A stretch of 64,000 bases of DNA from Agarophyton chilense (lineage: Eukaryota; Rhodophyta; Florideophyceae; Gracilariales; Gracilariaceae), in contig JARGXX010000022.1 in NCBI GenBank assembly GCA_030374765.1, positions 1,302,001 through 1,366,000 of the forward strand. Reading direction: 5' to 3'. This document shows, piece by piece, positions 141 through 64,000 of this stretch (position 1 is the stretch's first letter; every line of letters starts with the position of its first letter). The position numbers and the translations under genes are program-made. Under the pieces are notes generated by a model, which was not told the origin of the DNA, ran no database searches, and saw nothing but the letters and a program-made list of their open reading frames with translations.

Positions 141-991
141 TGAAGGACAATGCTCTTCAAAGTGGTTTCTTCGTATGACTACGAAGTTTCGCTTGCTTGA
201 GGAATAGCTTGGGCTATGACAAGCTATGCCGCTATTGCGTGCTGACGACCGGTTAGGACCGGAAGTGCACATGGGTGGAACACGTGGACTGCACGGATGC
301 CAACGCTTGAGTACGAGGCGTGCCACACGTGGCCCGGGTTCTACCTAATGGTTAGTATTATTTAGTAATTTTTAGTATTTATTTGGCTACGCTATCGCTA
401 TTTAGTGTCTATTTCTTGGGCGCGCGCCCACTGTCAAAGGCCGCGCGCCACACTACTTAGAAGGTTGAGCACTGCTCCCCAGTAAAGACCCTCTCGGGAG
501 ATCCAAGAAGGGAGTCTTGGCTCTGAACTCTTCGCCTTCGGCGCATCTTCACCGCATACTGCGTGAGCGCCCGTCGCACGTTAGTTCATCCACCCCTTCG
601 TCGACCAGAGTGCTACCACCACAGTGGGTTCATATTTAATCGCCGACACTTGTCGTAGTCTCGCCCCTGTATAGGGTTTCGCCCCCGTTTTTCTATCGTT
701 CTCCTTTTTGGCTCTCGTGAGCGGCCGCACCACTCACCCCGCTCGTCCACCTCATACGAGTGTTTCCTCGCTCTTTTTACGACAATCGCCGTGGTACCGC
801 TCCGCATCGGATTGGTCACACCCCGTACGCCAGATTGGCCTCGGTCTTACACCCGACTCCGTGGTGCCTTTCCAGAGTGGCTCTGTTTCTGTGCTCCGCT
901 GGGACGCGTCTCCTCCGCCTGAGGCGTGTCTCTCAAGAGAAGAAGATCCCGAACATCTTCGTGGTGTCTCCGCTCTAAGCGTTGTCCTACA
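141..991 (+). repeat. Solo LTR of the younger chromovirus
   Basis: The 851-bp sequence starts TGAAGGAC and ends CCTACA. It matches both 887-bp LTRs of the element at 33770-44371 and sits at exactly the same genomic site. It lacks a net 36 bp near position 815 that both other LTRs have. Its left flank GCATT equals the left flank of the full element, and its right flank GAGTT corresponds to GAATT at the full element, so the presumed 5-bp target duplication is imperfect. Through most of its length it shares variants with the 5' LTR, but at its extreme right end it follows the 3' LTR. That is what recombination between the two LTRs would leave. Confidence 0.88.
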
Positions 992-2277: not shown

Positions 2278-2723
2278 TGTAACGCAATGACTGGTAGGTC
2301 AGCGTACTGGTCTCAACCTGGGGTAGCGTGGTAGAGCGGGTCCTCAGGTTGGTATCCTCGACGGCGGCACTCCCAGATTTCTTGGTGCATTGGGCTGGCG
2401 TTTACTGCGTAGTCCTACAGGTCGGAGCTACGTGAACGATGGTTTGAATACCAATTGGTAGAACTAATGTACCAAAGAGGGCAATTTAGTATCCTAGCGG
2501 TTCCTACCTGGTTCTACTGGAGAAGCGTCACTCGAGCCAAGAAAATATCGACGGTGAGTCGCTGGGATCTCCCTGGAACTGTAAATCTATTCTATTACAC
2601 TAAATAAAATCAAATCAAAATCAAAATATGTCCAGCTGAGGTCGGCCAGTCCACTTGGCGTCTGTAAGATACCTCAGGCCCTCGCGGCTTACCGTACTCA
2701 ACCTTAATCGTTGCTCCTTTACA
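2278..2723 (-). repeat. 3' LTR of old chromovirus, copy A
   Basis: The 446-bp LTR begins TGTAACGC and ends TTTACA on the plus strand. It pairs with 12060-12507. On its inner side, 2726-2736 is an unbroken pyrimidine run, which on the element's own strand is a polypurine tract directly before the LTR. Confidence 0.85.
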
Positions 2724-3328
2724 TACCTCCCTTCTTAGGATTCGACCGTCCCGGCGAAGTCCGAATTGCCTCACACCTTCCTGGGAGTCTGGCTCTAGTT
2801 GGGCCTTTACATGAATCTCCAATCTTTCCTTCAGGGTCAGAACGTCGTGATTATCTGCATACTAATCTGGACACGAGCGGTGCCTTGATTGACATGTCAG
2901 CACCCCATGACCATTCCGGGGGGCCCGACGCGGCGTCGCACCGCCACCATCCTCGGGGGTACCAGTGCGTATGAGCTGACGCTTGGCGCCATGCTTGCAG
3001 CTAGTTCCCCGAAGGTACTGTACGCGCACCGGGAGGGGGGGGGATCAGTGCCACTTTTTCTATGCTTCGTTATTCTTTTGGTGACCCTACGCGCGTCGTC
3101 CGCCGTGAACCACGGTGTGCACTTCGTCCATTCGGGTTCACGTCGATCATCCTGCCCGATTCTGTTTCATCTTCTCTCCTTTCCGTCGTAGTATTCCTCC
3201 ATTGGTCGCGCGCGATGCCGAACTCGCCTTATTAGCCCGTCGGATACGCCACTCACCCTCCGAATTCTCTCTCTTCCGTCGGTTCCCATATCTATTTTCC
3301 GGCGGACCTACCTGTGGGCGGCGGCGCC

Positions 3329-5298
3329 ATGGCTTCGAACAACCAAGCGGGGAGCTCCTCGGGATACCAAGTGGTTCATGAGCAGCCCGGGGACAGCTAT
3401 GAACATACCATCGGACTAAATCCGCGGGCAGTGCGTCATGCCATTCTGCCGTCCCCTGTGGAAGAATACCAGAAGTTTTGTAATGAGTATCTCGACGCCA
3501 GGAGGTTCCCTCAGATCCCCGATTTCTGGAGGAGCAGTAATAACGCGCGCAGCGTCTCGTGGTATAACCATTGATTGCATTGTCCTGTGGATCCGCAATC
3601 GGCGACGCGGTGTCGCACCCTCATTCCAGCGGACATGCCGTACGTCCGTTGTGAGGAAGAAGCCGAGAACCATTTCAGGGTAAACAAACTCCTTTCGGAC
3701 CTATAAGAGGACTTCATCTCGCCTTACGTGAGATTTCCTCCGGCGGGTCACAATCTTTTGACGCTCATGTGCTTCCTACCGCCGTATGACCACCTGTTTT
3801 GGATGTCCAATAGGGTCTATTGGAACGAGATGCATGAGCCCGATGGCCTCCTCCGTCAATCCCTGAAGTTCTTCTTCTGCTGGCACCGGGTGGTGTTTCA
3901 TAACATGAGCGCAGACAAACGTTCTCCGTTATATCTCTCGCTTCCCGGCGTGGATGAGAACCAATGGGCCCTCTACTGGCGTATCTCGCCGCTGCTTTTG
4001 GTTCCCACGCCGTCCGTAGTGGCGTATCAATCGTCCCAACTCATGGGCGATGACAATGACCGAAGGTTTTGGTTATCCTGGCATATACTTTTCGGTTAGT
4101 TCGGCGTGATGTCCCTTATGGCCTTCTTGGATACGTCGAAGTATGGAGTACGTGGTAATATCCGTTCGGACGATTGCAGGATATGGCACGAAGAGCACAT
4201 ACCCGGTCCTCGAGGTCGTCTAATCCCGCTTCCGGACATCATGATCCGTTTCCTAAGGAACCTGCGCATCCAGAATATCGTCCGTGGGACCCATTTCGCC
4301 GTCGAGGAGGCCGAGATCCTTTTTGGATCATGGTCTACAGGTGGAGTGGAGCGAGACTCCCGGATTTCTTCGGTATGACCACGATACCGACTCGTTTACG
4401 CCGATTCCGCTACATCCACTGGCTCAGGATGACACTCGTGCCTATGGCGCCAACCCTTTGAAGAAACAACCATCGGACATTCCGACGCGTCATGGGCCTG
4501 ACTATTACCCGAAGGCCATCGGTTTCGATCCCCTGTGTTTTGAGCCTGATTTGGAAGCCACGCCGTTAGTTCGTGCTGTTATGTCAGATGGAGAATACTT
4601 CGGCGAAGATCCCTTCATCTTACCCGTGGAGGGCGTCAATCCTCCGGTCGAGTCCGCTGTTGTGTTGCCGACCGCTTCCCCTCCTCCAGCTCCTCCAGGC
4701 ACTGGTCCTCAGGATGAACTCTCATATGAGCCCCCCGTCGCCCAAGTGGATATCCCTCCTGGAGAGGTTACTGTCATAACCGAATGTCCTGTAGGTGATG
4801 CGATGGCTCAGACGTTCACTGTGGGCGTCGACATCGCTCTGTCCTCTCCATTGCCGTAATTTACCGCTTCGATCACGGCTGCAGCCGCGGATCTCCGTCA
4901 TGAATGCCGTACCGTTGGTATTACTATTTCGATAGACATTGGGACAGTCCCGAGGGAAGCTTGCTTCTGGCCGCGTCGCTCGGCGCGCAACAACCGCTGT
5001 TTTTCAACAGGGTCAAGATCTGAAGACCGCTATGGTCACTTTCCTGCAGCAGAATGCACAAGTGATGTCACAGAGGGTTACTGCCGACTTGGATTCCCGG
5101 CATCGTCTAAATATGAGCGACCGCGAGGCTTTCGAGGGTGACAATAGTTCCTCATGTGAATCTCCGCAGAAGAAGCGTGCTCGGCTCGCTGGTGCTGGTT
5201 TTATTGGTCCAGTAGGACCCTCGGTTGATCCTATCCCCGGTTTCGCTCCTGCAGTTTCCAATGAGGACGACGGAGTTACTCCTGCGCCGCCCCAGTGA
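3329..5298 (+). pseudogene. Antisense accessory ORF relic of old chromovirus, copy A
   Basis: This plus-strand gene relic runs opposite to the element's pol and lies between the chromodomain and the left LTR. An ATG at 3329 opens a frame interrupted after about 80 codons. Further open blocks follow at 3728-4099, 4106-4378, 4284-4859 and 4939-5298, in more than one frame. The N-terminal block has GLNPR followed by AIL, and a later block has P-x-VV-x-Y-x-x-S-x-L. The same motifs occur in the same order in the antisense ORF of the younger element (43449 to 41582). The C-terminal block is Pro-rich, then a basic KKRAR segment. I do not recognise the family and infer no function. The preceding 2737-3328 has no convincing gene and could be its leader. 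Confidence 0.6.
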
Positions 5299-12040: not shown

Positions 12041-12056
12041 CTAAGTCGGGAGACAA
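12041..12056 (-). other. Primer-binding site of old chromovirus, copy A
   Basis: Read on the minus strand, three bases after the LTR, this reads TTGTCTCCCGACTTAG. It matches TGGTCTCCCGACTTAG in the younger element at 34660, with a G-to-T change at the second base. It would pair with a tRNA 3' end of type CTAAGTCGGGAGACCA. The same site recurs in copy B at 55421-55436. Confidence 0.7.
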
Positions 12057-12059
12057 AAA

Positions 12060-33232: not shown

Positions 33233-33629
33233 AGAAAAAGGGCACGACATTTGAACCAGAGATGCAAAGAGAACTGGCAAGCTCGAGCAGTTATTACGTC
33301 CAGATGATTGAGCAGAAATTGTTGCTATTCAGCTTTCCTCCATCCCGCCCGTAATGTCTCTAATCCTATTTCTGGACGTCTTGAGCGATACTACAGACAT
33401 TCAGCTGTTCTCCAGCATATAAAAGAGCTTTTTTAACTTTTTATGTTTATCAGTACCTCAATCTGACTCATTCCTTTGGTTTGTATTCTACTTATGAGAT
33501 ACGCTTTCAATTACGTCTATTTCTCTCACGTGCGAACAATTTATATTAGATTCAGAAAAACTTAGAGTCAGTTTCTACGATTAAGAGCCATAAAAGGCTA
33601 AAAGAGTTGGTTGCAGCACACTGATTCGT
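33233..33629. other. Left flank of duplication copy B, no gene
   Basis: AT-rich sequence with no gene seen. It ends where copy B begins, at TTTTGTATCC. Confidence 0.5.
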
Positions 33630-33769
33630 TTTTGTATCCTGTTAAATCACTCTACGGAGATCTTATTCTGCTTAAGAGGCGTTATAGAGGACACAATTTG
33701 TAACCCTATCTTCCAAAAGTCAGTTTGATCAATCAATGTCGAATCCAAGTTATTGGTTTTGGCCGCATT

Positions 33770-34656
33770 TGAAGGACAATGCTCTTCAAAGGGGTTTCTT
33801 CGTATGACTTCGAAGTTTCGCTTGCTTGAGGAATAGCTTGGGCTATGACAAGCTATGCCGCTATTGCGTGCTGACGACCGGTTAGGACCGGAAGTGCACA
33901 TGGGTGGAACACGTGGACTGCACGGATGCCAACGCTTGAGTACGAGGCGTGCCACACGTGGCCCGGGTTCTACCTAATGGTTAGTATTCTTTAGTAATTT
34001 TTAGTATTTATTTGGCTACGCTATCGCTATTTAGTGTCTATTTTTTGGGCGCGCGCCCACTGTCAAAGGCCGCGCGCCACAGTACTTAGAAGGTTGAGCA
34101 CTGCTCCCCAGTAAAGACCCTCTCGGGAGATCCAAGAAGGGAGTCTTGACTCTGAACTCTTCGCCTTCGGCGCATCTTCACCGCATACTGCGTGAGCGCC
34201 CGTCGCACGTTAGTTCATCCACCCCTTCGTCGACCAGAGTGCTACCACCACAGTGGGTTCATATTTAATCGCCGACACTTGTCGTAGTCTCGCCCCTGTA
34301 TAGGGTTTCGCCCCCGTTTTTCTCTCGTTCTCCTTTTTGGCTCTCGTGAGCGGCCGCACCACTCACCCCGCTCGTCCACCTCATACGAGTGTTTCCTCGC
34401 TCCTTTTCCGACAATCGCCGTGGTACCGCTCCGCATAGGGTTGGTCACACCCCGGACTGTGCCGTGCTCACCTAAACACTCTAGGTATATCCCGCCGGAT
34501 TGGCCTCGGTCTTACACCCGACTCCGTCGTGCCTTTCCAGAGTGGCTCTGTTTCTGTGCTCCGCTGGGACGCGTCTCCTCCGCCTGAGGCGTGTCTCTCA
34601 AGAGAGGAAGATCCCGAACATCTTCGTGGTGTCTCCGCTCCAAACGTTGTCCTACA
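33770..34656 (+). repeat. 5' LTR of younger chromovirus
   Basis: It begins TGAAGGAC and ends CCTACA. It should hold the promoter for gag-pol. It matches the 3' LTR at 43485-44371 over its full length; substitutions are clustered in the first 70 bases. Confidence 0.92.
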
Positions 34657-34659
34657 AAC

Positions 34660-34677
34660 TGGTCTCCCGACTTAGAA
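34660..34677 (+). other. Primer-binding site of younger chromovirus
   Basis: TGGTCTCCCGACTTAGAA lies three bases after the 5' LTR. TGG complements a tRNA CCA end. The old chromovirus keeps the same core. The last ten bases of the deduced tRNA end, CGGGAGACCA, recall yeast tRNA-Tyr from memory, but the tRNA is not assigned. Confidence 0.78.
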
Positions 34678-34821
34678 GTTTGAGTCGAGCACACCCAGTC
34701 ACGATTAATCGGAAAAAGGACTCACAAATTGAGGTTGATCTCAGTTGCCCTATTTGAGGCAGTTTCTTGGCCCCAATAGCCGATCGGGTTTGGATACTCA
34801 CGTGTAACGGACTTTGATCTC

Positions 34822-36756
34822 ATGTCGTCCAAAGACCGTCCGAGGACGCGGAGTCAAACCGGTGCACCGGAACCCTCGCAACCATCCCGTATCCCAGTCC
34901 GTTCACGATCTCATACCGGTGGATCGACTGGCGTGCCAGGTGGAAGGACCTCGAGACCTCCTGTCTCTGATTCGACACCCCCAGCAAGTGGAGCAGGACC
35001 GGCGTCTGCCGCCGCCCTGATGCTCTCCCCTGCTAGGGATGTCACACCCCATCCCAGCCTTGCAGCTGTGGAAGAGCAACTCCACTCTATGCGGGAAGCT
35101 CAAGTCATCCTTGCAGAGGAGTTCGATTCCCTTCGCAAGAAGGTAAACGACACTGCTACGCAGGATTTTTCTGAGGACCTCCGTGTCCTCCGTGCGGATG
35201 TGAACTCGATTCTAGAGTCCCTTGGTGAACCCTCGGCTTTTGTCAAGGACGTCGCGGACAAGTTCTCGTGCGTCCGAAGCCGTCTCGAGACGTTGGAACA
35301 AACCCTAATGTCGGGAGATGATCCGGCCGAGCCGGTTGCAGTATTCCACAAGGGATGTAAGGAAGAGAACCGCCAGGCTCGAAAGAAGCGAAGGAACACG
35401 GATCCCGAACCGTCGGACTCCTCATCCTCGGGGTCCGACTCTTCCGATTCATCGGTGGAAGTAGCTCGCCGTGAGCGTTCCTCACGCTCTAAGCGGTCAA
35501 CAGCCACCCATGGTGTGATCCGCGCCCTCACGAAGGGAAGCAAGCACATAGGTTTGAAGGAGCTGAAACCGACCAATTCGCTCTTTAAGAAGCTCTTATC
35601 ATACCGGTACTACCGTTTGGAGGACTCCTCTTTGGATCGTACACCCCGTGGTACGGGAAGAGTGAAGGACTGCATTAAGCGAATGCAGCTCTCACTTCGC
35701 AAACAGTTGTTTTCTGGAGAAGACCGAATGTTGGTGTTGGATTTCTTGGAACGCTTTGTCGTGGAAGCTGACATCCTTGGAATGAACGAGGGACAGGCCT
35801 ACGTTGCCTTATCGTACTTCTTACGTGGGCTTGCAGAAGACCAGTATCACTCTGTCAGAGGTACATCACGCGTGTCCGAAGGAGGGGTAACCTGCTGGCC
35901 TGAAGCAGTTCAGTACCTCCTGAGGTTGTATGCTACTAACTCTGCCATTCAGCAGGCGATACGCGCCCTGCGGGACACCCGCCAACGTCCAGGCGAGTCG
36001 GAAACCGATTATTCGTCGCGCCTTAACAAGGCCTGCCACCGCTGTAGCAACGTTTACCTCACTGAAGAGCGTTGTACCATGTTTGTCGATGGTTTGGACC
36101 CGGCGATCCGGACTCTTGTTGCTCGACGTCGAGAAGATAGACCTAAAGCCACGTATTTGGAACTAGTGCAGTTCGCTCGCGCAGAAGGTGACGCCCTGCG
36201 CGCACGCACTCCTGGCTCCAGGGTTAGGTCCGCAAAAGCGTTGATGTTACAACCGGGTACCCCGTCAGCTTCGATGATCGACAAACAGGCCTCTCGAGGG
36301 GACTATGATAACGTGCATCTAGCCCATAGCAACGTTCATTCCATCCCGGCAACGGAGTTACCCTCTACATTGGACGAATCACAATACGTGATTGAGGATG
36401 ACATGCTACTCTATGCGGATAATGGTCGCGTCCGTGCGCCACGCATCCCACACGAGAGTGGTAATGTCCGCTTTACGCGTCTTGGTTGGAGAGATACCCG
36501 CCCCGCGGTGAAGTTCGCCGAGCTCCGCCATCCAACACCGGCTTCTGGTCTGATTTGTCATCTCTGCTACAAACCATTCCATACTTCTCCACAATGTGTG
36601 TTGTCTCTCCGAGAATGGGCACAAGTCGTAGTCAATTACGAGGCCCTATCCCCGGAGGACAAATCAGCTGTTCCGATTGCATCGTATATCCGTGCTCGAA
36701 CGGATGTTCCACGTCACGTGTCGCTTCCCCGAGCTCGGGTGGTACCTGCACCGTAA
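34822..36756 (+). CDS. Gag polyprotein of younger chromovirus
   Basis: This is an intact 644-codon ORF with ATG at 34822, 166 bp after the LTR. A basic Pro/Ser-rich start is followed by a coiled coil (about 80-160), an acidic Ser stretch and a capsid region (about 255-480, with RQRPGESETDYSSRLNKACH as in Retrotrans_gag proteins). A zinc knuckle follows, C579, C582, H587, C592, with the canonical CX2CX4HX4C spacing. It would form the virus-like particle and bind genomic RNA. After its TAA the same frame is Pro-rich and open to another TAA at 36880, so this stop may be a mutation or a readthrough point. Confidence 0.9.
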   Translation: MSSKDRPRTRSQTGAPEPSQPSRIPVRSRSHTGGSTGVPGGRTSRPPVSDSTPPASGAGPASAAALMLSPARDVTPHPSLAAVEEQLHSMREAQVILAEEFDSLRKKVNDTATQDFSEDLRVLRADVNSILESLGEPSAFVKDVADKFSCVRSRLETLEQTLMSGDDPAEPVAVFHKGCKEENRQARKKRRNTDPEPSDSSSSGSDSSDSSVEVARRERSSRSKRSTATHGVIRALTKGSKHIGLKELKPTNSLFKKLLSYRYYRLEDSSLDRTPRGTGRVKDCIKRMQLSLRKQLFSGEDRMLVLDFLERFVVEADILGMNEGQAYVALSYFLRGLAEDQYHSVRGTSRVSEGGVTCWPEAVQYLLRLYATNSAIQQAIRALRDTRQRPGESETDYSSRLNKACHRCSNVYLTEERCTMFVDGLDPAIRTLVARRREDRPKATYLELVQFARAEGDALRARTPGSRVRSAKALMLQPGTPSASMIDKQASRGDYDNVHLAHSNVHSIPATELPSTLDESQYVIEDDMLLYADNGRVRAPRIPHESGNVRFTRLGWRDTRPAVKFAELRHPTPASGLICHLCYKPFHTSPQCVLSLREWAQVVVNYEALSPEDKSAVPIASYIRARTDVPRHVSLPRARVVPAP

Positions 36757-36884
36757 TCCCATGTCACCGACGTGGTCGGTCACCCCACCGCCTGTACGGA
36801 ACCTTCTGGACCTGGTGCCCCGGCGTTGCCTGCTCAACGTCCTGAGCAGCCGCCTCCGGCGGAGCAGGCCCAGAAAAACTAAAT

Positions 36885-37655
36885 GTGAAAGTCTCCTCTC
36901 AAGGAGGGGCGCACTCAGAGTCGAGGTCGACGGCGCCCGAGGCGTCCAAGCCTCGCTCCCCGGTCCAAATCCTTTCAAGGAAAGAGGCCGTCGATGACGT
37001 GAACTCGGAACACTTTAGTGTTCTGCGTCGTCCGTGGAAACTTGTTTCCCATAACCGGTTCCCGGATAGAGTTCTGGTGATGGCCAAGAGAAACTACAAA
37101 GTCTATTCTGACCTTGGCCTTTCACCCCAGTTTATGGTGCGACACCTTACCGTCTTAGACACCGGTGCCGGTCCGAACTTTGTCGTGGAGGAAGTGTTAC
37201 CGCCTGCCTTGCAGTCTAGGATCCGCCGTGACCACGTCCCGGAGGTCGCTGACGCGAACAACAAACCGTTGGATACGGTGGGGTTCATAGAACTGGTAGT
37301 CCGCGTTGGCGCTCGCGTGGTGAAACTCGACTTCGTCGTATGTCGGAAATTAGCCGCCCCAGTCATCTTGGGTTGCGACTTTTGCGATTGCTTCGTCGAA
37401 GCGATCTTCCCCCGCCAGCGGCGTGTCGAGATGGAGGATGGATCGTCCACTCCAATCGTTCGTCGTCCACTTAGGCGTGCCACTAAGAAGCACGTCCCGC
37501 TATCGGCAGCACAGGAACCTGGACCGGATAACGGTGAATCTAATAAGCTCCGCGTCGCAGCGTCGTTGTGCGTCCCGCCTGAGTCCCAAATGATGGTGAA
37601 AGTAACCTCCCGAACGTGGACTCTGGGTCTTGCAACCATTGTCGTCACTGTATGA
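36885..37655 (+). CDS. Aspartic protease part of pol, younger chromovirus
   Basis: This frame is one base back (-1) from gag. It has no convincing own ATG and is best read as polyprotein. The retropepsin active site is VLDTGAGPNF with D92 counted from 36885, and the later LGCDF motif closes the fold. The C-terminal part is the linker to RT (VPPESQMMVKV). It is followed by a frameshift near 37625. The equivalent old-element protease has lost its DTG. Confidence 0.85.
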   Translation: MKVSSQGGAHSESRSTAPEASKPRSPVQILSRKEAVDDVNSEHFSVLRRPWKLVSHNRFPDRVLVMAKRNYKVYSDLGLSPQFMVRHLTVLDTGAGPNFVVEEVLPPALQSRIRRDHVPEVADANNKPLDTVGFIELVVRVGARVVKLDFVVCRKLAAPVILGCDFCDCFVEAIFPRQRRVEMEDGSSTPIVRRPLRRATKKHVPLSAAQEPGPDNGESNKLRVAASLCVPPESQMMVKVTSRTWTLGLATIVVTV

Positions 37656-40600
37656 CAGGCACAGCCTCGCAATTGAGAATGGAATCCTCCATGTGGAGCC
37701 AAACCAACCGTTTCACGTGCTGATCGCCAATCTAGGCACTGTACCCTGTACCCCAGTATCTGGTGAAGAACCAAGTGATAGGGTCCGTCATGCCGCACCC
37801 CATCGCTGTGGTACCGACAAAGCTGACCGCAGCTGACGTTCTCGGACTCGTTCACTCTAAGGAGGGGGACAGCCCGGAACCCGTTTCATCACCGGTACCC
37901 GGGGTTCAACCAGTAACATCAGGGACGCAGCCCGTTTCAACGATTGGTGACCGCCCCGATCCAGTCCAAGAACTCGAGGACCTGGATCTCAGCCATGTCC
38001 CGGGGTCATACCGCCATCGATTGCGAGAACTGTTGAAGGACTTCACCACTATGTGTGACGGCTGCCTTGGTAAGATTTCCACTACCGAACACCGGATTGA
38101 TTTGCTACCGGACACCCGACCCATCTCTCAGCACCCATACCGTGCCGGACCCGCCGCACGCGCGGAGGAAAAAACGCAAGTGGATAAAATGCTTCGAGCA
38201 GGAGTCATTGAACTGGCTCAGTCGCCGTGGGCTTCTCCAGTAGTACTGGCTCCAAAGCAGGATGGTTCCTGGAGGTTTTGCGTCGACTACCGTCGGTTGA
38301 ATGCCGTTACCGTCAAGGACGTGTATCCAATCCCAAGAATGGAGGAGTACATTAACTCGCTGGGCACCACCACCGTCTTTACAACCCTGGACGCCAATTC
38401 GGGATACTGGCAAGTTCTGGTAAGGAAGCAAGACCAGGATAAAACAGCTTTCGCGTCGATCCTCTCGTTGCCCAAGCCTGGAAGGCCCTTCACCGTAGAT
38501 ACGGACGCCAGCGACTACCAAGTAGGTTGTGCACTGTTTCAAACTGCACCCAATGGGGAAAGACGCCCCGTAGGGTACTGGTCCCGATCGCTCAACGTCT
38601 ACGAGAAGAATTACTCCGTCTCGGAGAAGGAATGCCTTGCAGTAGTGTGGGCATTACAAACGTTGCGCCCCTATGTCATGGGTAATCATTTCACCGTTTT
38701 CACGGACCACGCATCGCTTCGATTGCTACTCTCCATCTCGGAGCCTTCAGGCCGCTTGATGCGTTGGAGTCTCCGTCTAGCGGAATTTGACTTTGACGTG
38801 CAGTACCGAAAAGGATCGTTCAACACCCAAGCCGATGCTCTCTCCCGCCTGGTCACTACTGGCGAAGCACTACCCGTCAAAGAAGATGAAATACCCTGCT
38901 TTGCAGTGAATGGCGACGACGCTACCATCGAGGACGAGGAACGAGACACGGACTCTTCAGATTCCGGTTCCGAATTGGACGACTTTGTTCTCTCGGAAGA
39001 TTCCGAGAAACCCTCACCAGGCAACTTCGTGCCTATTACTCCAGAGGAGATGATACGGGAGCAATTCGCTGACCCGTTCTGCGCGAAGGTCCGCGCTCAA
39101 CTCAATGGAGGAGGCACTCTCCCCTTTCAGGTGAATGAAGACGGATACCTTGTACGGACCGTCGGATCGCACCCACAAACCTTGGTACCACAGAACCTCC
39201 AGTCGAGAGTCTTGCGGTTGTCGCACTGCTCCAAACTGAGTGGCCACGTCGGGGGACGGAAAATTTACCTCACCCTACGCCGTAACTTCTACTGGCCTGC
39301 CATGGCAGTGGAATGCTACGCAACGGTGCGGTTTTGTACCGATTGCGCTCGGGACCGTGTCAAACTCCGCCGTCATGCGACGAAGTTGAAGCTGTTTCCA
39401 GCTCGCGCTCCATTGGAGTTTGTGGCCATCGATATACTCGGTCCCTTCCTTACCACCAAGCCGAATTACAAGTTCTTACTCGTAATTACGGATTTCTTCT
39501 CCAAGCTGGTCCGGACCGTACCGTTACGGAAGATCTCCGCTATGAGCGTGGCTCAAGCCTTCGTCCTACACTGGTTCTTCATCTACGGTCCACCGGTCAA
39601 CCTGCTCTCCGATAACGGGAGACAGTTCGCCTCTCGTTTCTTCGAGGATGTATGTCGCATCTTGGACATTAGGAACCTGTTCACGACCACTAACCATCCC
39701 CAAACTAATGAGCAGGCCGAACAGTTCAACCGGACACTACTTGTGACACTCCGTTCATACGTTGCAGATCACCCCAAAGATTGGCACTTGTTCACTGATG
39801 CGCTCACCTTTGCGTACAATACGCAGGTGCACAGGACAATTGGATTAACGCCCTTCGAGCTGTTACTGTCCCGTACCCCACCTCCCGTGGGGCTGGAACC
39901 ACAGCCCACGCTGGATACCTTTCCGTCACCGACTGCTTACCGCGAAGCGTGGAAAACTTGGCTCTCGAAGTTCGTTCCCGCCGCACGGCGTTCAATGGGC
40001 CGAGCCCCGGCCGCTTACAAGCGTGACTTTGATACGAAAGCCCCTCGCTCGCCGCCACGTCTCGCCCCCGACGGTTATGTATTCATCCGCAAGGAGTAAT
40101 GGAACCCAGAGAAGGAGAAACGCCACAAGCTGTCACCTGTTGCCGACGGCCCCTTTCAGATTATTTCGGTGGCTTCCGACACTGTCGTTGTTGACCTCGC
40201 CGGTAACCACGAACGCCTCTCCCGCGATCGCGTGGTATCAGCTCCTCCGCCGTTGACATCCCAACCTACTGGTGTGACTGCTCCCGTTGAAACGGATTCA
40301 TCGACCCCCTTACCCCAGGTCCACCCGCGTCCCTACGCGTTACCACACCCATCTCGGGGTTTCTCTGACCTTCCGCTACCCGCGGCGCCCAACCCGAAAG
40401 GAATCGTGTCACGCATTCGTCGCTTCTTCCCAGTCCACCCAACGGACACCAACTCCGGTGCATCGTCTAAGGAGGGGGAGGCGCCCGACAGCCGTCGTAA
40501 TCCGGTCGAAGCCGTCGCTGGAAACGCCGCACCTTCGCCTGTCATTCTTCTCCCATCAGGGGTGCCTGATACCGACGTCCTGCACGACTCGAAGCAGTCG

Positions 40601-41368
40601 CTATCCAAGCCTCAGACCGCAGCTGTGGATAACGCCACCAACACTCGCCGAGGTGTCACCACACATGCAACACGGAATGCAAATGCGCTTGACGCATTGC
40701 AGCCTGATACACTACGAGTGGACGACGCACAGCCAAGTACCCCGCACAGGGAGGCGAATACATCCACGGCGCCGACGCCAGACAGCCAGCCATTGAAACG
40801 CTCACGTGACTACACGTAATCTCGCCGTGGGACAGAGAGGTGCGACAATGCGCCACCGCCCCAGCGAATCTCACCGCCGAAGCGAGCTTCACCACGCCGA
40901 TTAGCGGAACGACCACCCGGGCTACCCGCTGGTGTGGGCCCTCCAACCGGAGTGGGAAGCGCCGAAACAAGCCCGGCACTCGGGGAAAATGAACCGCCGA
41001 ACTCGGGTCGACATTATACTCAGCCGAGGACTGCCTTGCGCGCTACACGGCCCGACCGGAGCGAAGCCGCCCAACGCGTGATCACTTCGGTACCCCCTGG
41101 CTCAGGACGGGTACCACCCGAAGATAGCGACACCGTCATACGGGATGTCCGGGAAGTATACCGACAAGAGTTCGTGGTCGGACGCATTCTAGAGCACTCC
41201 TACCACCCAAAGGGGTATCTCCAATACTTGGTCCGTTGGTACGGGTACGGCCCCGAATGGGATTCAGACGAACCGATAGAGCACCTACCTCGGTCAAAGG
41301 TGGTACAGTATCATCGTCGTACTGTCACGGCTTTGCCGGCTACCATAGATCGAGCCCAAGTGGGATAA
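37656..41368 (+). pseudogene. RT, RNase H, integrase and chromodomain of pol, younger chromovirus
   Basis: The main frame runs from about 37763 to 41368 with TAA stops at 40097 and 40817. The RT start is present (FCVDYRRLNAVTVKD, then DANSGYWQV), but at 38452/38453 DKTAF jumps directly to ILSLPKPGRPF. The FGL-x-NAP and YxDD segments are absent without loss of frame. RNase H follows (VDTDASDYQVGCALF to KGSFNTQADALSRL). Integrase has HHCC zinc ligands at about 39225-39345 and a core with AIDILGP, LSDNGRQF and QAEQFNRTLL, with 35 residues between the second Asp and the Glu. After the first stop come a GPF-like motif and a Pro-rich linker, and after the second the chromodomain (41161-41325). Confidence 0.9.
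41161..41325 (+). CDS. Chromodomain of younger chromovirus
   Basis: FVVGRILEHSYH, QYLVRWYGYG and EWDSDEPIEHLP, with a terminal VVQYHRR helix, give the chromodomain fold. It is the C-terminal end of pol and would direct insertion to heterochromatin. It lies in the pol frame but beyond two in-frame TAA codons. Confidence 0.88.
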
Positions 41369-41581
41369 GAAGACATCCGATGGGGATAAAGGAACAGAAG
41401 ATCTGGATAAGGACCCTTGGAAGAAGGAGAAGATGCACAGAAGATCTGGAGAAGGACACACAGAAGAATTGGAAGAGAAGAAAGAAAACAAATACGTCAT
41501 AGACGGAAGCAGTTTACTATTTTGGAAGTTGCTGCACACACTACCGCACAGCAGGACAGACTAACCAAAGATCATAAGGGA

Positions 41582-43449
41582 TTAATTGAAAGAACCCGGA
41601 TTGCCGTGCGCGCCACCCAAATCGCTAGCGGGGTTACTCCCGCCGGCCAGGCGTGCCGCGAGGGCGTCTCTCATCGCACCGATGTCGCCGCTTGCTGCTT
41701 GCGCGTTCACTCCAACAACCCGAAGGAACTGGGAGATAAAAACCGCTTCTGGGCGTATGGGAACCTCGATAACTTCCGGTTCGTCCGGCAACGCCGCTGC
41801 CACTGGATCGACCACCGCACCTGCGTGAGTCGCTCCCTGCGCAGCCCGCGCCATAGTATCGGCTCCATTGGGGTCTCCCACGTCCTCCATGACCTCGTCG
41901 CCACGGTATTCGCCCGCCTTCTCCGGGAGATCATCACCGCCATAGGCGTAGTAGAAGTCATCCGAGTTGACAAACCCCACGGGGTGCCCGTATGGTATGC
42001 CTCGTGGAGCCATCCGGAGTGACGACGCCTCCGCCTCGGAGATCTCTTGCTGCTCCCATGGGTTAAAGAAGATGAAATCTCCCGCCAAGGGCGTGCGACG
42101 GCCCGGAGACCGATCAGCCCCACCGGCTTCTTGACCACGGCCGCTCTGCCGGACAGGCAATACAGCCCAGTCGACACGCGCGATGATGTCGATGAGCTCC
42201 TGAGCTTCATCAGCGTTATTGTCACCTCCAAGAGGGAGTTAAAGGTCCAGCTGCCGGATGTAACCACGCAAACGCGGAGGAAGATACCACAGTTGATACT
42301 GGTCGTAGGCTTCCCACAAGATGTACGCCGCGGCGCGGACTGCCCATTCGGTTAGGACCACGGACCATAAGCCGGAGTGCGGATCCTCGATGAGGTACGA
42401 GCCCAGATAGGAGACGACTGGAGGCAACTCCACGTAACATCCCCGGCACACCTCGACGGAGGACCACCACCCAGGCAGGGAAACGTATCGCCCAAACTGG
42501 TAGAAATAACTAATCCGGATTATCTCCGTGTTCTGATGAGGGACAAGGACCCAAAGCGGGACCTGCCCCAACGCTCCTCGCGGACGAAGTTCTGTAACCA
42601 CCGATATCGGGATTCACGACGAAGGTGACGGAACTCGGCACGAATGATCGGACGGACCCAGCAGGTCGCTTCTTGACGCGCTCGCGGTTGACCGCGCCAT
42701 GCGTAAGTTTCCAACGCCGCAAGGCGGTCACAATAGCCGATCTCACCCTGCGTCTGGTACATCCGTAGGTCGAAGCCGAATCCGTCGGAGATGGGGTATT
42801 GGAAGTTAGCCCTGTTGATCCGTGAGTAGCCGATGCGGACGAAGGTACACTGCGCTTCTTCCGCCGACTCGCGTCTTCTCCGCAGAATCGCGTGAACGGG
42901 AACCGTCACTCGGCGTCGCCAGTCCCACGAAGTGGTGATCAAAGCCGGCAGCTCGCCCGGGAGACGCGCATTGCCATCAGCATACGCGGCCACGAGTTCT
43001 TCGTCGAAGACCGCTGTCGGATGGAACCACGGAGCTCTCCGGAGAATCGCCGCATGTTGACGCGGGTTTAACCCGAAGAGTTCGTCGTAACTGGGCCAGG
43101 AGTGCTCCGCAGGAGTGATGTGGCTTGTAGCTTCAACGGGACCCCGGGATTGGCTCGGTGCGGTTGAGGAGGCACTCCCCCGCGAAAGGGGAGCCGAATG
43201 GAAACCGGAGAAGTAACCCCGGCGCGGATTATTACTACCGTTCATCGGGAGTGCTGGTCGCCGAGGAATCGGGATGTGGTCGCTGGAAGTGTGCGTACGG
43301 TGCGGAAGTGCGCTCGAAGTTCGAGGAGTGGTTACCGCGTTGTTGCGTTTGTCGTTCGGTGATGCAGCTCTGCCTTCGACAGTCGAGTGGTCGCTGGACG
43401 CGTTACGCGGCTCGCTCTTATGTCGGTTGGACCGTTGCCTACCCACCAT
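41582..43449 (-). pseudogene. Antisense accessory ORF of younger chromovirus
   Basis: A long ORF runs opposite to gag-pol between the chromodomain and the 3' LTR. The first ATG at 43449 opens 310 codons (43449-42520), rich in Arg and Ser at the start, then NPRQHAAILRRAPWF and SWDWRRRVTVPV. A frameshift near 42540 leads to the second part (42601-42239: ISYFYQFGRY, PPVVSYLGSYL), then a TAA at 42239. The third part (42160-41582) has PYGHPVGFVNSDDF and a FLRVVGVNAQAASGD end. The order of motifs matches the antisense relic of the old element. Undamaged it would be about 620 residues. A promoter in the antisense strand of the 3' LTR is possible because the ATG is only 36 bp from it. No family is known to me. 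Confidence 0.72.
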
Positions 43450-43473
43450 GTCGACGGCGTGTTCGCCACTTGC

Positions 43474-43482
43474 GGAGGGGGA
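43474..43482 (+). other. Polypurine tract of younger chromovirus
   Basis: GGAGGGGGA ends two bases before the 3' LTR, the usual position of the plus-strand priming site. Confidence 0.82.
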
Positions 43483-43484
43483 TA

Positions 43485-44371
43485 TGAAGGACAATGCCCT
43501 TCAAGGGGGTTTCTTCGTAGGACTTAGAAGTTTCGCTCGCTTGAGGAATGGCTTGGGCTATGACAAGCTATGCCGCTATTGCGTGCTGACGGCCGGTTAG
43601 GACCGGAAGTGCACATGGGTGGAACACGTGGACTGCACGGATGCCAACGCTCGAGTACGAGGCGTGCCACACGTGGCCCGGATTCTACCTAATGGTTAGT
43701 ATTATTTAGTAATTTTTAGTATTTATTTGGCTACGCTATCGCTATTTAGTGTCTATTTCTTGGGCGCGCGCCCACTGTCAGGGGCCGCGCGCCATACTAC
43801 TTAGAAGGTTGAGCACTGTTCTCCAGTAAAGACCCTCTCGGGAGATCCAAGAAGGGAGTCTTGACTCTGAACTCTTCGCCTTCGGCGCATCTTCACCGCA
43901 TACTGCGTGAGCGCCCGTCGCACGTTAGCTCATCCACCCCTCTGTCGACCAGAGTGCTACCACCACAGTGGGTTCATATTTAATCGCCGACACTTGTCGT
44001 AGTCTCGCCCCTGTATAGGGTTTCGCCCCCGTTTTTCTCTCGTTCTCCTTTTTGGCTCTCGTGAGCGGCCGCACCACTCAACCCGCTCGTCCACTTCATA
44101 CGATTGTTTCCTCGCTCCTTTTCCGACAATCGCCGTGGTACCGCTCCGCATAGGGTTGGTCACACCCCGGACTGTGCCGTGCTCACCTAAACACTCTAGG
44201 TATATCCCGCCGGATTGGCCTCGGTCTTACACCCGACTCCGTCGTGCCTTTCCAGAGTGGCTCTGTTTCTGTGCTCCGCTGGGACGCGTCTCCTCCGCCT
44301 GAGGCGTGTCTCTCAAGAGAGGAAGATCCCGAACATCTTCGTGGTGTCTCCGCTCTAAGCGTTGTCCTACA
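43485..44371 (+). repeat. 3' LTR of younger chromovirus
   Basis: The 887-bp partner of the 5' LTR begins TGAAGGAC and ends CCTACA. It would supply polyadenylation for gag-pol. On the opposite strand it lies directly upstream of the antisense ORF. Confidence 0.92.
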
Positions 44372-45658
44372 GAATTCGTAAGACCTGCGCGTGTTACATT
44401 AGTTTCAAAAGCTAGGGAAAGAATAGAACGATCAGAAAGCATTTTTCACTGTTGCTAATAGCCTATGCACTCTCTGAAGTGCAATATTGACCAAGCTGGA
44501 AGCCAAAATTTGTATCTGATCGTAAATTGCCTTACATTCTGAGTACTAGCCGTAGTTGTGAAGCTCAAAATCCTAATTGGCTGTCACGAGATCATTCAAC
44601 TCCGTTCCTGCGTCTTCGGTGCCCTCTACGGCTATTAGCTTGAGTTTCAACGCATTTAAATCTATTTAACCTGCTGTTTGACGAACGATGGACAGTCGCC
44701 AAATGTTCAGGTCATCCAAAGTTTGATTCCAGTATGTGTCAAACAATTTGTCCAGTTGAATGTACTCCGAGAGTAGGACTTTAAATTACGGCTGATGGAG
44801 AACCTCTACTCCGTACACCATTGCGCATCTAACAATATGACGGCACGGAAACCCCATTATTATGTTCTTCTCACAGCTGGCGCGCACTTTGAGATTTCTT
44901 TTGGCTTATGTGTCATTTCCGTGTACTCTAAGGGCAAAAAGCACAGTAATTTCAGTGGTATTAAACTTTGAATCATAGGCAGGATGTGGATTGGAAAGTG
45001 TTCTGGAGGCTGCGGTATACGTTTCTCTACATATTAGCTCGAATTTGACGACAGGTCCGACATAGCTCTCACCTTGTTCGAGCTCAGGTCATTCTACATC
45101 CTCGATATCTACTATAGTTGCGCTTAACACAGCGTACAATTTTGACGTAGCTTTACTGGGCTCCTTTAACTGCAGGAGCCCGTAGCTTGTGTACTCATTG
45201 AATATGAAGTTCAGAACTGGAGAGGGGATAGGGAGCTCTGTGTCTCGGATAGATCGATGACGTGAGCTGAGCGGACTAAGGGATCTGAGATGTGAGGAAT
45301 GCCTTTCAACTGTCCTTTTTCTCGTAAGCCGATTCATTTCGTAAAGTTTATTAGAGAAAGGCACCTTCTTCGGTAGAATGTATGCCTTATGTCCAGAATT
45401 GGATGCCTTTTTATAGCCTCTACCTTGAAAAGGATACCTTTTTGGGACAGATGCAGCTCTGGAACAAAGCACTAACATTTGTGGTTTCAAGTGGTAAAGG
45501 TATTTGAACCAGAGTGGAGGGTTACGTTCCAAACCGAAGTACCGTTGTTCGAACGAAAGTCTTCTAGACATAAAATTTGATATACTTCTCGACCTTCTAA
45601 GATTAAAGAGGTCTCGGGATATGCATCGCACCATGTGCTCCTTCCAACGTTGCCACAC
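44372..45658 (-). other. Degenerate older element 3' part, copy B
   Basis: This is the partner of 992-2277. A 189-codon minus-strand ORF (45089-45658) is open here; its first codons abut the LTR of the old chromovirus, so the true gene continued upstream before the insertion. It is rich in basic residues and has no recognised domain. Confidence 0.45.
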
Positions 45659-46709
45659 TGTAACGCAATGACTGGTAGGTCAGCGTACTGGTCTCAACCT
45701 GGTGTAGCGTGGTAGAGCGGGTCCTAAGGTTGGTATCCTCGACGGCGGCACTCCCAGATTTCTTGGTGCACTGGGCTGGCGTTTACGGCGTAGTCCTACA
45801 AGTCGGAGCTACGTAAACGATGGTTTGAATACCAATTGGTAGAACTAATGTACCAAAGAGGGCAATTTAGTATCCTAGCGGTTCCTACCTGGTTCTACTG
45901 GAGAAGCGTCACTCGAGCCAAGAAAATATCGACGGTGAGTCGCTGGGATCTCCCTGGAACTGTAAATCTATTCTATAACACTAAATAAAATAAAACCAAA
46001 ATCAAAATATGTCCAGCTGAGGTCGGCCAGTCCACTTGGCGTCTGTAAGATACCTCAGGCCCTCGCGGCTTGCCGTACTCAACCTTAATCGTTGCTCCTT
46101 TACATACCTCCCTCCTTATGATTCGACCGTCCCGGCGAAGTCCGAATTGCCTCACACCTTCCTGGGAGTCTGGCTCTAATTGGGCCTTTACGTGAATCTC
46201 CAATCTTTCCTTCAGGGTCAGAACGTCGTGATTATCTGCATACTAATCTGGACACGAGCGGTGCCTTGATTGACATGTCAGCAACCCATGACCATTCCGG
46301 GGGGCCCGACGGGGCGTCGCACCGCCACCATCCTCGGGGGTACCAGTGCGTATGAGCTGACGCTTGGCGCCATGATTGCAGCTAGTTCCCCGAAGGTACT
46401 GTACGCGCACCGGGAGGGGGGGGGATCAGTGCCACTTTTTCTATGCTTCGCTATTCTTTTGGTGACCCTACGCGCGTCGTCCGCCGTGAACCACGGTGCG
46501 CACTTCGTCCATTCGGGTTCACGTCGATCATCCTGCCCGATTCTGTTTCATCTTCTTCCCTTTCCGTCGTAGTATTCCTCCATTGGTCGCGCGCGATGCC
46601 GAACTCGCCTTATTAGCCGGTCAGATACGCCACTCTCCCTCCGAATTCTGTCTCTTCCGTCGGTTCCCATATCTATTTTCCGGCGGACCTACCTGTGGGC
46701 GGCGGCGCC

Positions 46710-48679
46710 AAGGCTTCGAATAACCAAGCGGGAAGCTCCTCGGGATACCAAGTGGTTCATGAGCAGCCCGGGGACAGCTATGAACATACCATCGGACGAA
46801 ATCCGCGGGCAGTGCGTCACGCCATTCTGTCGTCCTCTGTGGAAAAATACCAGAGGTTTTTTAATGTGCATCTCGACGCCAGGAGGTTCCCTCAGATCCC
46901 CGATTTCTGGAGGAGCAGTAATAACGCGCGCAGCGTCTCGTGGTATAACCATTGATTGCATTGTCCTGTGGATCTGCGATAGGCGACGCGGTGTCGCACC
47001 CTCATTCCAGCGGACATGCCGTACGTTCGTTGTGAGGAAGAAGCCGAGAACCATTTCAGGGTAAACACACTCCTTTCGGACCTATAAGAGGACTTCATCT
47101 CGCCTTACGTGAGATTTCCTCCGGCGGGTCACAATCTTTTGACGCTCATGTGCTTCCTACCGCCGTAGGACCACCTGTTTTGGATGTCCAATAGGGTCTA
47201 TTGGAACGAGATGCATGAGCTGGATGGCCTCCTCCGTCAATCCCTGAAGTTCTTCTTCTGCTGGCACCAGGTGGTGTTTCACAACATGAGCGCAGACAAA
47301 CGTTCTCCGTTATATCTCTCGCTTCCCAGCGTGGATGAGAACCAATGGGCCCTCTACTGGCGTATCTCGCCGCTGCTTTTGGTTCCCACGCCGTCCGTAG
47401 TGGCGTATCAATCGTCCCAACTCATGGGCGATGACAATGACCGAAGGTTTTGGTTATCCTGGCATATACTCTTCGGTTAGTTCGGCGTGATGTCCCTTAT
47501 GGCCTTCTTGGATACGTCGAAGTACGGAGTAAGTGGTAATATCCGTTCGGACGATTGCAGGATATGGCACGACGAGCACATACCCGGTCCTCGAGGTCGT
47601 CTAATCCCGCTTCCGGACATCAAGATCCGTTTCCTAAGGAACCTGCGCATCCAGAATATCGTCCGTGGGACCCATTTCGCCGTCGAGGAGGCCGAGATCC
47701 TTTTTGGATCATGGTCTACAGGTGGAGTGGAGCGAGACTCCCGGATTTCTTCGGTATGACCACGATACCGACTCTTTTACGCCGATTCCGCTACATCCAC
47801 TGGCTCAGGATGACACTCGTGCCTATGGCGCCAACCCTTTGAGGAAACAACCATCGGACATTCCGACGCGTCATGGGCCTGACTATTACCCGAAGGCCAT
47901 CGGTTTCGATCCCCTGTGTTTTGAGCCTGATTTGGAAGCCACGCCGTTAGTTCGTGCTGTTATGTCAGATGGAGAATACTTCGGCGAAGATCCCTTCATC
48001 TTACCCGTGGAGGGCGTCAATCCTCCGGTCGAGTCCGCTGTTGTGTTACCGACCGCTTCCCCTCCTCCAGCTCCTCCAGTCACTGGTCCTCAGGATGAAC
48101 TCTCATATGAACCCCCCGTCGCCCAAGTGGATATCCCTCCTGGAGAGGTTACTGTCATAACCGAATGTCCTGTAGGTGATGCGATGGCTCAGACGTTCAC
48201 TGTGGGCGTCGACATCGCTCTGTCCTCTCCATTGCCGTAATTTACCGCTTCGGTCACGGCTGCAGCCGCAGATCTCCGTCATGAATGCCGTACCGTTGGT
48301 ATTACTATTTCGATAGACAATGGGACAGTCCCGAGGGAAGCTTACTTCTGGCCGCGTCGCTCTGCGCGCTACAACCGCGGTTTTTCAACAGGGTCGAGAT
48401 CTGAAGACCACTATGGTCACTTTCCTGCAGCAGAATGCACAAGTGATGTCACAGAGAGTTACCGCCGACTTGGATTCCCGGCATCGTCTAAATTTGAGCG
48501 ACCGCGAGGCTTTCGAGGGTGACAATAGTTCCTCATGTGAATCTCCGCAGAAGAAGCGTGCTCGGCTCGCTGGTGCTGGTCTTATCGGTCCAGTAGGACC
48601 CTCGGTTGATCCTATCCCCGGTTTCGCTCCGGCAGTTTCCAATGAGGACGACGGAGTTACTCCTGCGCCGCCTCAGTGA
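46710..48679 (+). pseudogene. Antisense accessory ORF relic of old chromovirus, copy B
   Basis: Same layout as 3329-5298. The ATG of copy A is AAG here (46710-46712), so that start is gone. The later blocks (47184-47480, 47487-47759, 47665-48240, 48320-48679) are kept, and the block at 47665-48240 is still 191 codons long. Confidence 0.6.
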
Positions 48680-48853
48680 GTCCTGTTGGTGTTCAAAGCG
48701 CTTTCGCGAACGTTGAGGTCATGGCGAAGGCTGTTACGCCTCTGCTAGTTATTCAAATAAAGTAATGCATGTGCTTTCCCGAGTTGCTCCTGTACTTTCC
48801 CACTTGGGTGTCCCGAGACGGCGTCCGAACCTTAAAAGCTTCTCATGTCTTCC

Positions 48854-49390
48854 TCAGGTTTCGGCTGAGGACTGATGTTGTTCCTTGATGCGGGAGCTAC
48901 GGCTAACCGTCGTGTCAGGAGACGTATCGAGAGACGTTTTGGTATTATTCGGGCCAATGGTTGCCCCCTCCTGAAAGCTGCGCTCCGTGCTGCCAATTTT
49001 GCGCCAATGGCGGGCGATAAAATTAGCGGGAATGGTCTTTGGCTTTTGCCATATGTCTTCCTCAAGAGCATAGCCAAACAAGCGGACGCGATAGCGCACT
49101 ATCCAATCTTCTCCTCGACTGGCGGAGATGATTCGTTCAATAAAGTATTCGTGTTGGTATTCCTCCTCTGAAAGAAGATTGTTGTCCGGAGGGGCGAATC
49201 TACCGGGGTCGGTTGGGAGAGATGGGTCATCGTCATTGGCATTGACCAATGGGTCCATGAGTATAGTCGGGTCCGCGGATATTGCCTTAGGAGCAGTGGG
49301 GATCTGAACTTCGACCTGAGGTCGTGGTGATTCCGTCGGGCCAAGGGGCTGGGACATTGGTGGTACGGAGGAACTGGGAGCTCTTGTCAC
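48854..49390 (-). pseudogene. Chromodomain C-terminus of old pol, copy B
   Basis: The frame is open further upstream than in copy A (178 codons). It includes a Pro-rich linker before the chromodomain (EYFIERIISASRGEDW, HWRKIG). Confidence 0.85.
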
Positions 49391-49517
49391 CCGATCAATA
49401 GACGCTGTGTCCTGTAGGCCGTTAATTAGTGTCGTAATTCTGTGTTGACTGTCCTTAGGGATTTTTTATAGTCCCGTCGAGCGGGGTAGGAGTTTCCGCG
49501 TGGTATCTTCGAGGTCA

Positions 49518-50546
49518 TCACTGTCTTTCGGTGGCCGGTCCAGGTGAACCAATTCTCCTTTTCCCAAAGGTAGGCGTGTTCCAGACGGTTTTGTCGAAAT
49601 TGACTTTGTAGCGCCCTTGGGCTTTGGTCAGTACAGCTCTAGCCGATTGGATAACGTTGTCGATGCGTCGGCACAAGTAGCACTTCGCTTGAGTAGGAGT
49701 CATTTCTTCGGTTATGTCTTGGAGTATAATGGACTCCTGAAGGTCAACAGCTATCAGCGGTGGCGATCTCGTTAGCGTTAAATAAAATATTGTTGTATCC
49801 TTGGAAGCTTGTACTTGAGTGTTGTAGGCATAAACGAGTGGCTCAACGTAGTCGTGTCAGTCCAATCGGTGCCCCGATGCGTAGTGTGCCAATCGGTCTA
49901 GAAGGGTACGGTTGAAGCGTTCGGCTTGGCCATTGGTTTGCGGGTGGTATGCCGTTGTGGTTAAATGTTTGATACGTATGGTAGCACAAACGGGCGAAAA
50001 TACTTTGGATACAAACTGGCTGCCATTATCTGTAAGGAGGGAGAGTGGCATGCCATATGGATGTACCCAGTGGAACAAGAAGGCCGTGGCAACATCCATG
50101 GATTTTGCCTTCCCTGGGGCTAGGGCTCGGGTAAGTTTGGTAAACCTATCGGTTATTACCAAGACGACCCGTGTCCCATGGGACAACTTGTACAAAGGTC
50201 CAAGTATATCCATTGCGACGAATTCCATCGGGCCTGCGGCGGGGAAAACATTCAAATTGGCCTGATGGTTGGCGCGAGACCCTCGAATTTGTGCGCGCGA
50301 AGTGCGGTTCCGTGCGGTTGTCCATACGTCCTGCGCCATCAGTAGCCAGGAGAATAACTTCCTTAGGGTCTGGTTCATTCGTCGGCCTCCAGGGTGACCA
50401 GCCAAGCGAAGGAAATGGGCGAGGTATAGGAATTGCGCCCTCAATGGCCTCGGTACTACCCGTTGGAGTGCGCCACCTAGTGGTGCGCGGCGACACAATA
50501 GTCCGAATCGGTCGTTGTCGAATAAGCATCCAGGGGTTTCTACCAA
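49518..50546 (-). pseudogene. Integrase of old pol, copy B
   Basis: Same as 6137-7165, with the catalytic D, D and E retained (DILGP, LTDNGSQF, QAERFNRTLL). Here the core frame continues about 12 codons further, to 49857, because a stop in copy A is absent. Confidence 0.87.
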
Positions 50547-50598
50547 TTAGGCTGTTTCATTGCAGTACTCGTCTTCGACCAGCGCCTGTAGAAGTTCC

Positions 50599-63990: not shown

Positions 63991-64000
63991 GTACTAGAAA

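Follow-up and report, generated by a model that had tools for sequence, protein, structure and literature searches.

A 64,000-nt stretch of the genome of the red alga Agarophyton chilense (hereafter the window; contig JARGXX010000022.1, positions 1,302,001 to 1,366,000, assembly GCA_030374765.1) raises the question of whether a long reading frame that runs opposite to gag-pol in two diverged chromoviruses, between the chromodomain and the 3' LTR, is a gene kept by selection, and what such a gene might do for its element. A sequence-only reading of the window had proposed that the frame is shared between the two elements and retained by selection. We examined the frame in the window, across copies of both elements and across the genome.

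Two chromoviruses with an antisense gene

The younger element, F1, spans 33770-44371, and the old element, F2, lies on the - strand and occurs in two copies that a segmental duplication produced (138-15845 and 43482-59224, 97.8% identical). The features of both elements are as follows.

33770..34656, + strand: 5' LTR of F1, TG...CA, 887 bp, start set by TG
34822..36756, + strand: gag frame of F1, 644 aa (Pfam Retrotrans_gag, E 1.3e-6)
36885..40099, + strand: pol of F1 in two frames, defective in the window copy; the RT match covers part of the profile only
40820..41365, + strand: chromodomain frame of F1 (Pfam Chromo, E 4.6e-7), stop codon 41366-41368
41582..42568, - strand: middle and C-terminal part of the F1 antisense ORF, in a different frame from the N-terminal part, with one internal stop
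42520..43449, - strand: N-terminal part of the F1 antisense ORF, ATG at 43449, open frame 42520-43494
43472..43484, + strand: purine-rich tract, putative PPT, assigned by position and abutting the 3' LTR
43485..44371, + strand: 3' LTR of F1, putative promoter and source of an antisense transcript
141..991, + strand: solo F1 LTR, in the duplicated segment without a full F1 (match of 1-991 to 33630-34656; TG taken as the start)
2278..2727, - strand: 3' LTR region of F2 (partner 12060-12511, 84% identity), LTR ends approximate
3257..5289, + strand: relic of the F2 antisense gene in three pieces (tblastn with the intact copy L061, 62-73% identity)
45659-46108 and 55440-55891: F2 LTR-region pair in the segmental duplicate
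46632..48670, + strand: second relic of the F2 antisense gene, in the segmental duplicate, in three pieces (tblastn with L061, 63-72%)

The LTRs of F1 (33767-34656 and 43482-44371) are 97.1% identical, and its 5-bp flanks, GCATT and GAATT, agree at four of five positions. The pol frame at 37763-40099 matched Pfam RVT_1 (partial), RT_RNaseH, Integrase_H2C2 and rve, while the Pfam search with the first pol frame (36885-37655) gave no match. With domains in the order RT-RH-IN and Chromo in the next frame, F1 has the organization of a chromovirus. For F2, the chromodomain was recognized in another copy, L012 (Pfam Chromo, E 5.2e-8); a Pfam search with the two F2 chromodomain-region frames in the window gave no match. 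The claim that the LTRs and internal DNA of the two elements are unrelated stood at the level of DNA but not of protein, as F1 and F2 share 58-59% identity in RT, 49% in RNase H, 37% in integrase and 31-33% in gag. By gag-pol, F1 and F2 are evidently related lineages.

In the window, the antisense gene of F1 is broken by a frameshift and one in-frame stop. Read straight through, the 1868 nt of 43449-41582 contain four stops. The N-terminal part is 88.7% identical to the intact copy L007 over 42544-43500, and the part at 41582-42568 is 86.9% identical to L007 residues 312-639. The ATG at 43449 and the stop at 41582 correspond to those used by intact relatives, and the two F2 relics likewise agree with the positions given in the sequence-only reading. 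Its description of a long antisense ORF between the chromodomain and the 3' LTR of both elements was thus right about location but not about integrity, since 43449-41582 is not a single open frame and the F2 relics are in pieces.

The antisense stop of F1 is convergent with the stop of the chromodomain frame (41366-41368) at a distance of 213 nt, and 35 nt, within which the purine-rich tract lies, separate the antisense ATG from the 3' LTR. This closeness of the ATG to the LTR holds for F1 and is not general: in F2, the antisense ATG position (3329) is about 600 nt away from position 2727, the limit of the LTR match. Both elements carry a long ORF antisense to gag-pol in the interval between pol and the 3' LTR, the arrangement termed aORF-3R. 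The frame overlaps no recognised sense gene and occupies its own 2-kb stretch; it differs in this from HIV-1 ASP, which overlaps env.

The window holds further features. A 16-kb segmental duplication (1-15845 and 33630-59224, ~98%) has a full F1 in one copy and a solo LTR in the other, and inverted repeat arms that are 86-93% complementary lie about 27 kb apart (32954-33233 and 60012-60294). A third pol relative (62943-63993, + strand), 38-56% identical to F1 pol, continues past the end of the window. A frame of 429 aa at 20336-21625 (+ strand) encodes a DDE_Tnp_4 transposase, presumably Harbinger-like. The 568-aa frame at 27298-29004 (- strand) has a weak SAP match; nine near-full-length copies including that of the window (81-100%) and many relics occur in the genome, and we read it as the gene of a mobile element. 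A 385-aa frame at 30040-31197 (+ strand) has a Uma2-type nuclease domain (E 1.9e-12) and contains an array of 42-nt repeats (30872-31081).

Purifying selection on the antisense frame

Selection was assessed by pairwise Nei-Gojobori dN/dS on 40 F1 copies (the first 40 of the ranked list) and 17 F2 copies (12 search-returned loci and five chosen for long open frames). All copies were retrieved through their similarity to the antisense protein, so any apparent conservation relative to LTR or pol is biased; the comparison between frames is left unbiased by this choice. The antisense frame gave a dN/dS of 0.647 in F1 (95% over copies 0.57-0.73), with the other frames at 0.94-0.96 and the frame that shares its third codon positions at 0.76. 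In F2, the value was 0.409 (0.37-0.47), with the other frames at 0.88-1.33 and the mirrored frame at 0.50. The antisense frame has no majority stop over 622 (F1) and 643 (F2) codons, and each other frame has 8-26. Only the antisense frame unites low dN/dS with zero majority stops.

Variants shared among copies were then compared with singletons; the resulting p-values are rough because sites and copies were treated as independent. In F1, the synonymous to nonsynonymous ratio was 33:38 for variants in at least four copies and 317:764 for singletons (p = 0.003), and the other five frames gave p values from 0.11 to 0.33. In F2, the ratio was 154:129 for variants in at least three copies and 268:678 for singletons (p = 2e-15). 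The F2 mirrored frame leaned the same way more weakly (133:147 versus 252:660, p = 1.5e-9); among the remaining four frames, three leaned the opposite way (p from 0.004 to 0.0001) and one was flat (p = 0.12). F1 singletons were spread evenly over the codon positions (268, 260 and 265), which fits the decay expected after insertion. A fragment of F1 pol, taken as a positive control for this test, gave no signal in any frame; the copies are diverged there and probably poorly aligned, so this control carries no information in favour of the test.

Could the frame be a chance ORF, or the mirror image of a gene on the sense strand? The sense frame with common third codon positions does show lowered dN/dS in both families, and in F2 it shares the enrichment of synonymous variants among shared ones. 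It is nevertheless weaker on both measures and carries 26 (F1) and 20 (F2) majority stops against none in the antisense frame. Stop counts and dN/dS together rule this origin out for practical purposes, and we give it a negligible chance. An env-like gene would lie in sense orientation behind pol, and the frame under selection here is antisense. Nor does it seem at all probable that the antisense RNA is what matters, through dsRNA or interference, with the open frame incidental. Antisense transcripts of LTR elements with possible RNA roles are on record (PMC7264820), but purifying selection restricted to one frame in two families, and conservation of the protein across families, largely refute such a role. 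With dN/dS below 1 in both families, no majority stops and intact copies elsewhere in the genome, the proposal that retention of the antisense protein reflects selection was borne out, and the frame is very probably a protein-coding gene maintained by selection.

Distribution of the antisense gene in the genome

The genome (79.8 Mb, 135 contigs) contains intact antisense frames of about 590-650 aa outside the window. It also has 13 matches to the phycobilisome linker domain PF00427 (E 1e-32 or better), some of which lie on contigs of more than 1 Mb; such linkers in a nuclear genome are a mark of red algae. A search with the N-terminal piece of F1 returned 123 places at 77-100% identity, and four of 40 fetched F1 loci (L024, L025, L027 and L029) have an ATG-to-stop frame of at least 600 aa. 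The F2 piece returned 150 places, and two F2 loci selected for long frames, L061 and L062, are open over 670 and 669 codons.

Additional families came from the chromodomain side. The 2.5 kb behind eight of 150 chromodomain matches, chosen for long frames, were inspected, and in five of the eight a relative of the antisense protein is encoded on the opposite strand: L071 (F3), L072 and L074 (F4), and L070 and L075 (F5). The assignment of F3-F5 to chromoviruses rests on their having been found through Chromo matches, and their antisense ORFs are placed relative to the chromodomain only, behind it. The F4 frame in L074 is open over 611 codons. As for the other three flanks, L073 has no relative of the antisense protein within 2.5 kb, a nested pol fragment breaks up L068, and L069 looks, from its motifs, like a host chromodomain helicase. 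In L068, which belongs to another chromovirus family, a 206-codon sense frame follows directly after the chromodomain (16-633, + strand) and is a possible sense accessory gene. L075 also holds, separate from its F5 antisense gene, a fragment with 52-66% identity to the F2 antisense C-terminus (2330-2497, - strand), perhaps a piece of the F5 gene that lies in a different frame, or else of an F2 copy next to it.

Searches with these relatives widened the set. The C-terminal piece of F3 found 118 places, 87 of them (by row count) with no stop in the matched stretch; seven are at 94% or more and belong to F3, and 111 are at 53-65% and were read as two clusters, F6 and F7. The F4 protein found 72 places, 17 of which are stop-free over nearly all 611 aa; four of these 17 are identical to one another, which may reflect duplication in the assembly. 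With the F5 piece, seven places came up at 95% or more, along with 143 weaker matches, among them many from F2. Loci selected as open, two each from F6 and F7, have frames of 651, 652, 657 and 652 codons. Near-full-length open antisense frames therefore occur in F1, F2, F4, F6 and F7. Three F7-type antisense genes (C68:3139012, 3148209 and 3157406) lie at an exact spacing of 9197 bp and are perhaps tandem elements with common LTRs.

In all, the antisense protein is found in at least seven chromovirus-type families, which are clusters defined in this analysis, and at no fewer than 470 matched places (123 + 150 + 72 + 118 + 7), a count that may include assembly duplicates. The searches were seeded with the antisense ORF, and hence these counts cover ORF-bearing copies only. 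In F1-F5, the families in which its position was checked, the gene is antisense to and convergent with the chromodomain frame. The ORF is thus not confined to the two elements of the window, five further families having been found. Relatives in other genomes did not turn up: IMG/VR, scanned with A2, A1 and an F7 protein, had no match, nor did phage records scanned with that same F7 protein.

Relationship between the antisense proteins

The proteins fall into two clades. Between families, identity is 32-56% in clade A (F1, F3, F4, F6 and F7), with E values of 5e-23 or better; clade B (F2 and F5) has 27-30% across about 220 aa, with E values of 7e-12 or better. The comparison of F1 with F2 crosses the two clades: the antisense proteins are 21-24% identical over the alignable part and more diverged than RT, RNase H, integrase and gag of the same elements. 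The shared segments are colinear, an N-terminal G-x-N-P-R...AIL, then P-x-V-V-x-Y in the middle and, judged by eye, a segment with VG towards the C-terminus, and the F1-F2 alignment shows the same motif order that had been noted from the window.

Before F3-F7 were known, homology had little to support it: single-profile hmmsearch between F1 and F2, in both directions, did no better than with shuffled sequences. BLASTP between clades reached 39.7 bits at best, compared to 28.9 for the best shuffled or reversed control. Profile-profile alignment with hhalign was marginal for the two families alone (E 0.0013, prob 18). With all families, it gave E 6.1e-5 (prob 65), and 1.9e-6 (prob 90) when query and template were swapped; the controls, run in the first direction only, reached E 0.024 for the best of 100 column shuffles and 0.63 for the reversed alignment. 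The profile-profile match anticipated between the two antisense proteins was therefore obtained with the help of intermediate families, and the link between the clades appears remote but above controls.

The low pairwise identity and the failure of single-profile searches to tell real from shuffled sequences would suit antisense genes that arose independently in clades A and B and are alike through chance or convergence. Against such origins stand the hhalign result and its controls, the identical location, strand and segment order, and the relationship of the carrier elements by gag-pol. We regard independent origins as improbable, and a single origin for the antisense genes of both clades as likely. 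Shared descent would then explain retention in F1 and F2, because the elements themselves are related by gag-pol.

Possible expression and role of the protein

The explanation that we lean towards, with moderate confidence in it as a whole, is an antisense accessory gene that is ancestral in red-algal chromoviruses and kept by purifying selection; it would be transcribed from the 3' LTR and may act as a nuclear regulator. The gene, encoding a protein of about 590-650 aa opposite gag-pol in the interval between chromodomain and 3' LTR, would make the element ambisense; it would have been present in the common ancestor of the families, at least seven in number, and inherited with them under purifying selection. 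Its mRNA would have to come from integrated copies, because the genomic RNA holds the complement only. A promoter in the 3' LTR of F1 is plausible because the ATG is only 35 nt away, and the transcript would end before or within the 213 nt between the convergent frames. It counts against the explanation that the sole antisense TATA-like hexamer in the 3' LTR of the F1 reference copy is kept in one of 40 copies, and that no AATAAA or ATTAAA follows the antisense stop in that reference copy.

Domain and structure searches returned little. Pfam searches at E 10 matched none of nine clade A and none of seven clade B rows, with the qualification that HMMER filters drop most matches above 0.1, and a PDB search with the antisense proteins gave no credible match. 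A single-sequence AlphaFold model of the N-terminal piece from the window was useless (pLDDT 35.6). The F2 protein carries PKKR[AT]RL near its C-terminus in all five rows that reach that far, a motif that we take to resemble a nuclear localisation signal. Clade A representatives lack an NLS-like pattern (KR.R) after the ATG and have only an RRRR run in F1, and nuclear action is unsupported in clade A because such a motif is missing there. As a weaker part of the explanation, the protein may act in the nucleus on the transcription or silencing state of its element, as HBZ and APH do for HTLV; we consider such a regulatory role possible but tentative.

Two other functions were weighed. The protein could belong to the transposition machinery, residing in the particle or pre-integration complex and aiding nuclear entry, packaging or integration, as the long conserved core of clade A (by eye), the hundreds of copies that carry the protein and the basic motif close to the F2 C-terminus might suggest. 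If translated from an antisense mRNA, a particle protein would, however, require expression from integrated DNA simultaneous with that of gag-pol, and the Pfam searches of both clades (nine and seven rows) found no gag-like or nucleic-acid-binding domain, which leaves this function rather unlikely. Still less probable is a role in anti-silencing, in which the protein would work against host silencing of the element by chromatin or methylation. Arabidopsis VANDAL elements offer a precedent in their VANC proteins, and long retention in high-copy families suits a gene that raises copy number, but no sequence feature or domain match points in this direction. The nuclear regulator thus stays the preferred, if tentative, function.

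Comparison with known antisense genes

Antisense accessory ORFs are a class already described (PMC7264820). Plant aORF-3R examples include maize Grande gene23, rice RIRE2, Silene Retand ORF4 and bean PvRetro13, and a fungal one is Boty; a nuclear role has been suspected or proposed for the plant ORFs (PMC7264820; PMC11963269). The red-algal gene resembles them in encoding a protein without assigned function, antisense between pol and the 3' LTR, that is kept across copies and has a suspected nuclear role. It differs from plant aORF-3R in its red-algal host, its chromodomain-bearing families and the lack of a Pfam domain. Retand is of a non-chromovirus lineage and carries TRP28 (PMC11963269); that domain (PF04195) was not found at E 10 in nine clade A and seven clade B rows. 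The start codon of F1 lies directly beside the LTR, whereas Grande gene23 is reported with its own promoter (PMC7264820; PMC11963269).

Among retroviruses, HTLV encodes antisense proteins, HBZ in HTLV-1 and APH in HTLV-2/3/4, which influence how their own virus is expressed (PMC10186651). The likeness lies in an antisense gene at the 3' end, for which the 3' LTR promoter would be the simplest, putative source here as well. The red-algal protein is far larger, with no homology found; no bZIP domain of the HBZ type was matched by Pfam in the nine clade A and seven clade B rows. HIV-1 ASP is similar in being an antisense frame in a retroelement (PMC10186651). Some chromodomain Gypsy elements are depicted with one more ORF, of unassigned function (PMC2864245); a chromodomain and an extra ORF are what they have in common with the present families. 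A literature search of open-licence papers, by titles and abstract openings, returned no red-algal report of such a gene, which is weak evidence of absence.

Implications

Antisense genes of LTR elements were already on record from flowering plants and from a few fungi, without an assigned function. Traced here is one protein family across at least seven element families of a single host, with selection on the antisense frame in two of them; seven families also offer a more diverse sequence set than any single family, and they render testable what antisense genes do for retroelements. On a more speculative level, and short of what we would assert, the ambisense layout could be an ancestral trait of the whole red-algal chromovirus branch. 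A new protein family, read only from integrated copies, would then serve most chromovirus families of this genome as a built-in regulator, either a latency or copy-number switch or an anti-silencer. If this is true, it would be a functional parallel to HBZ that evolved separately, outside retroviruses and land plants.
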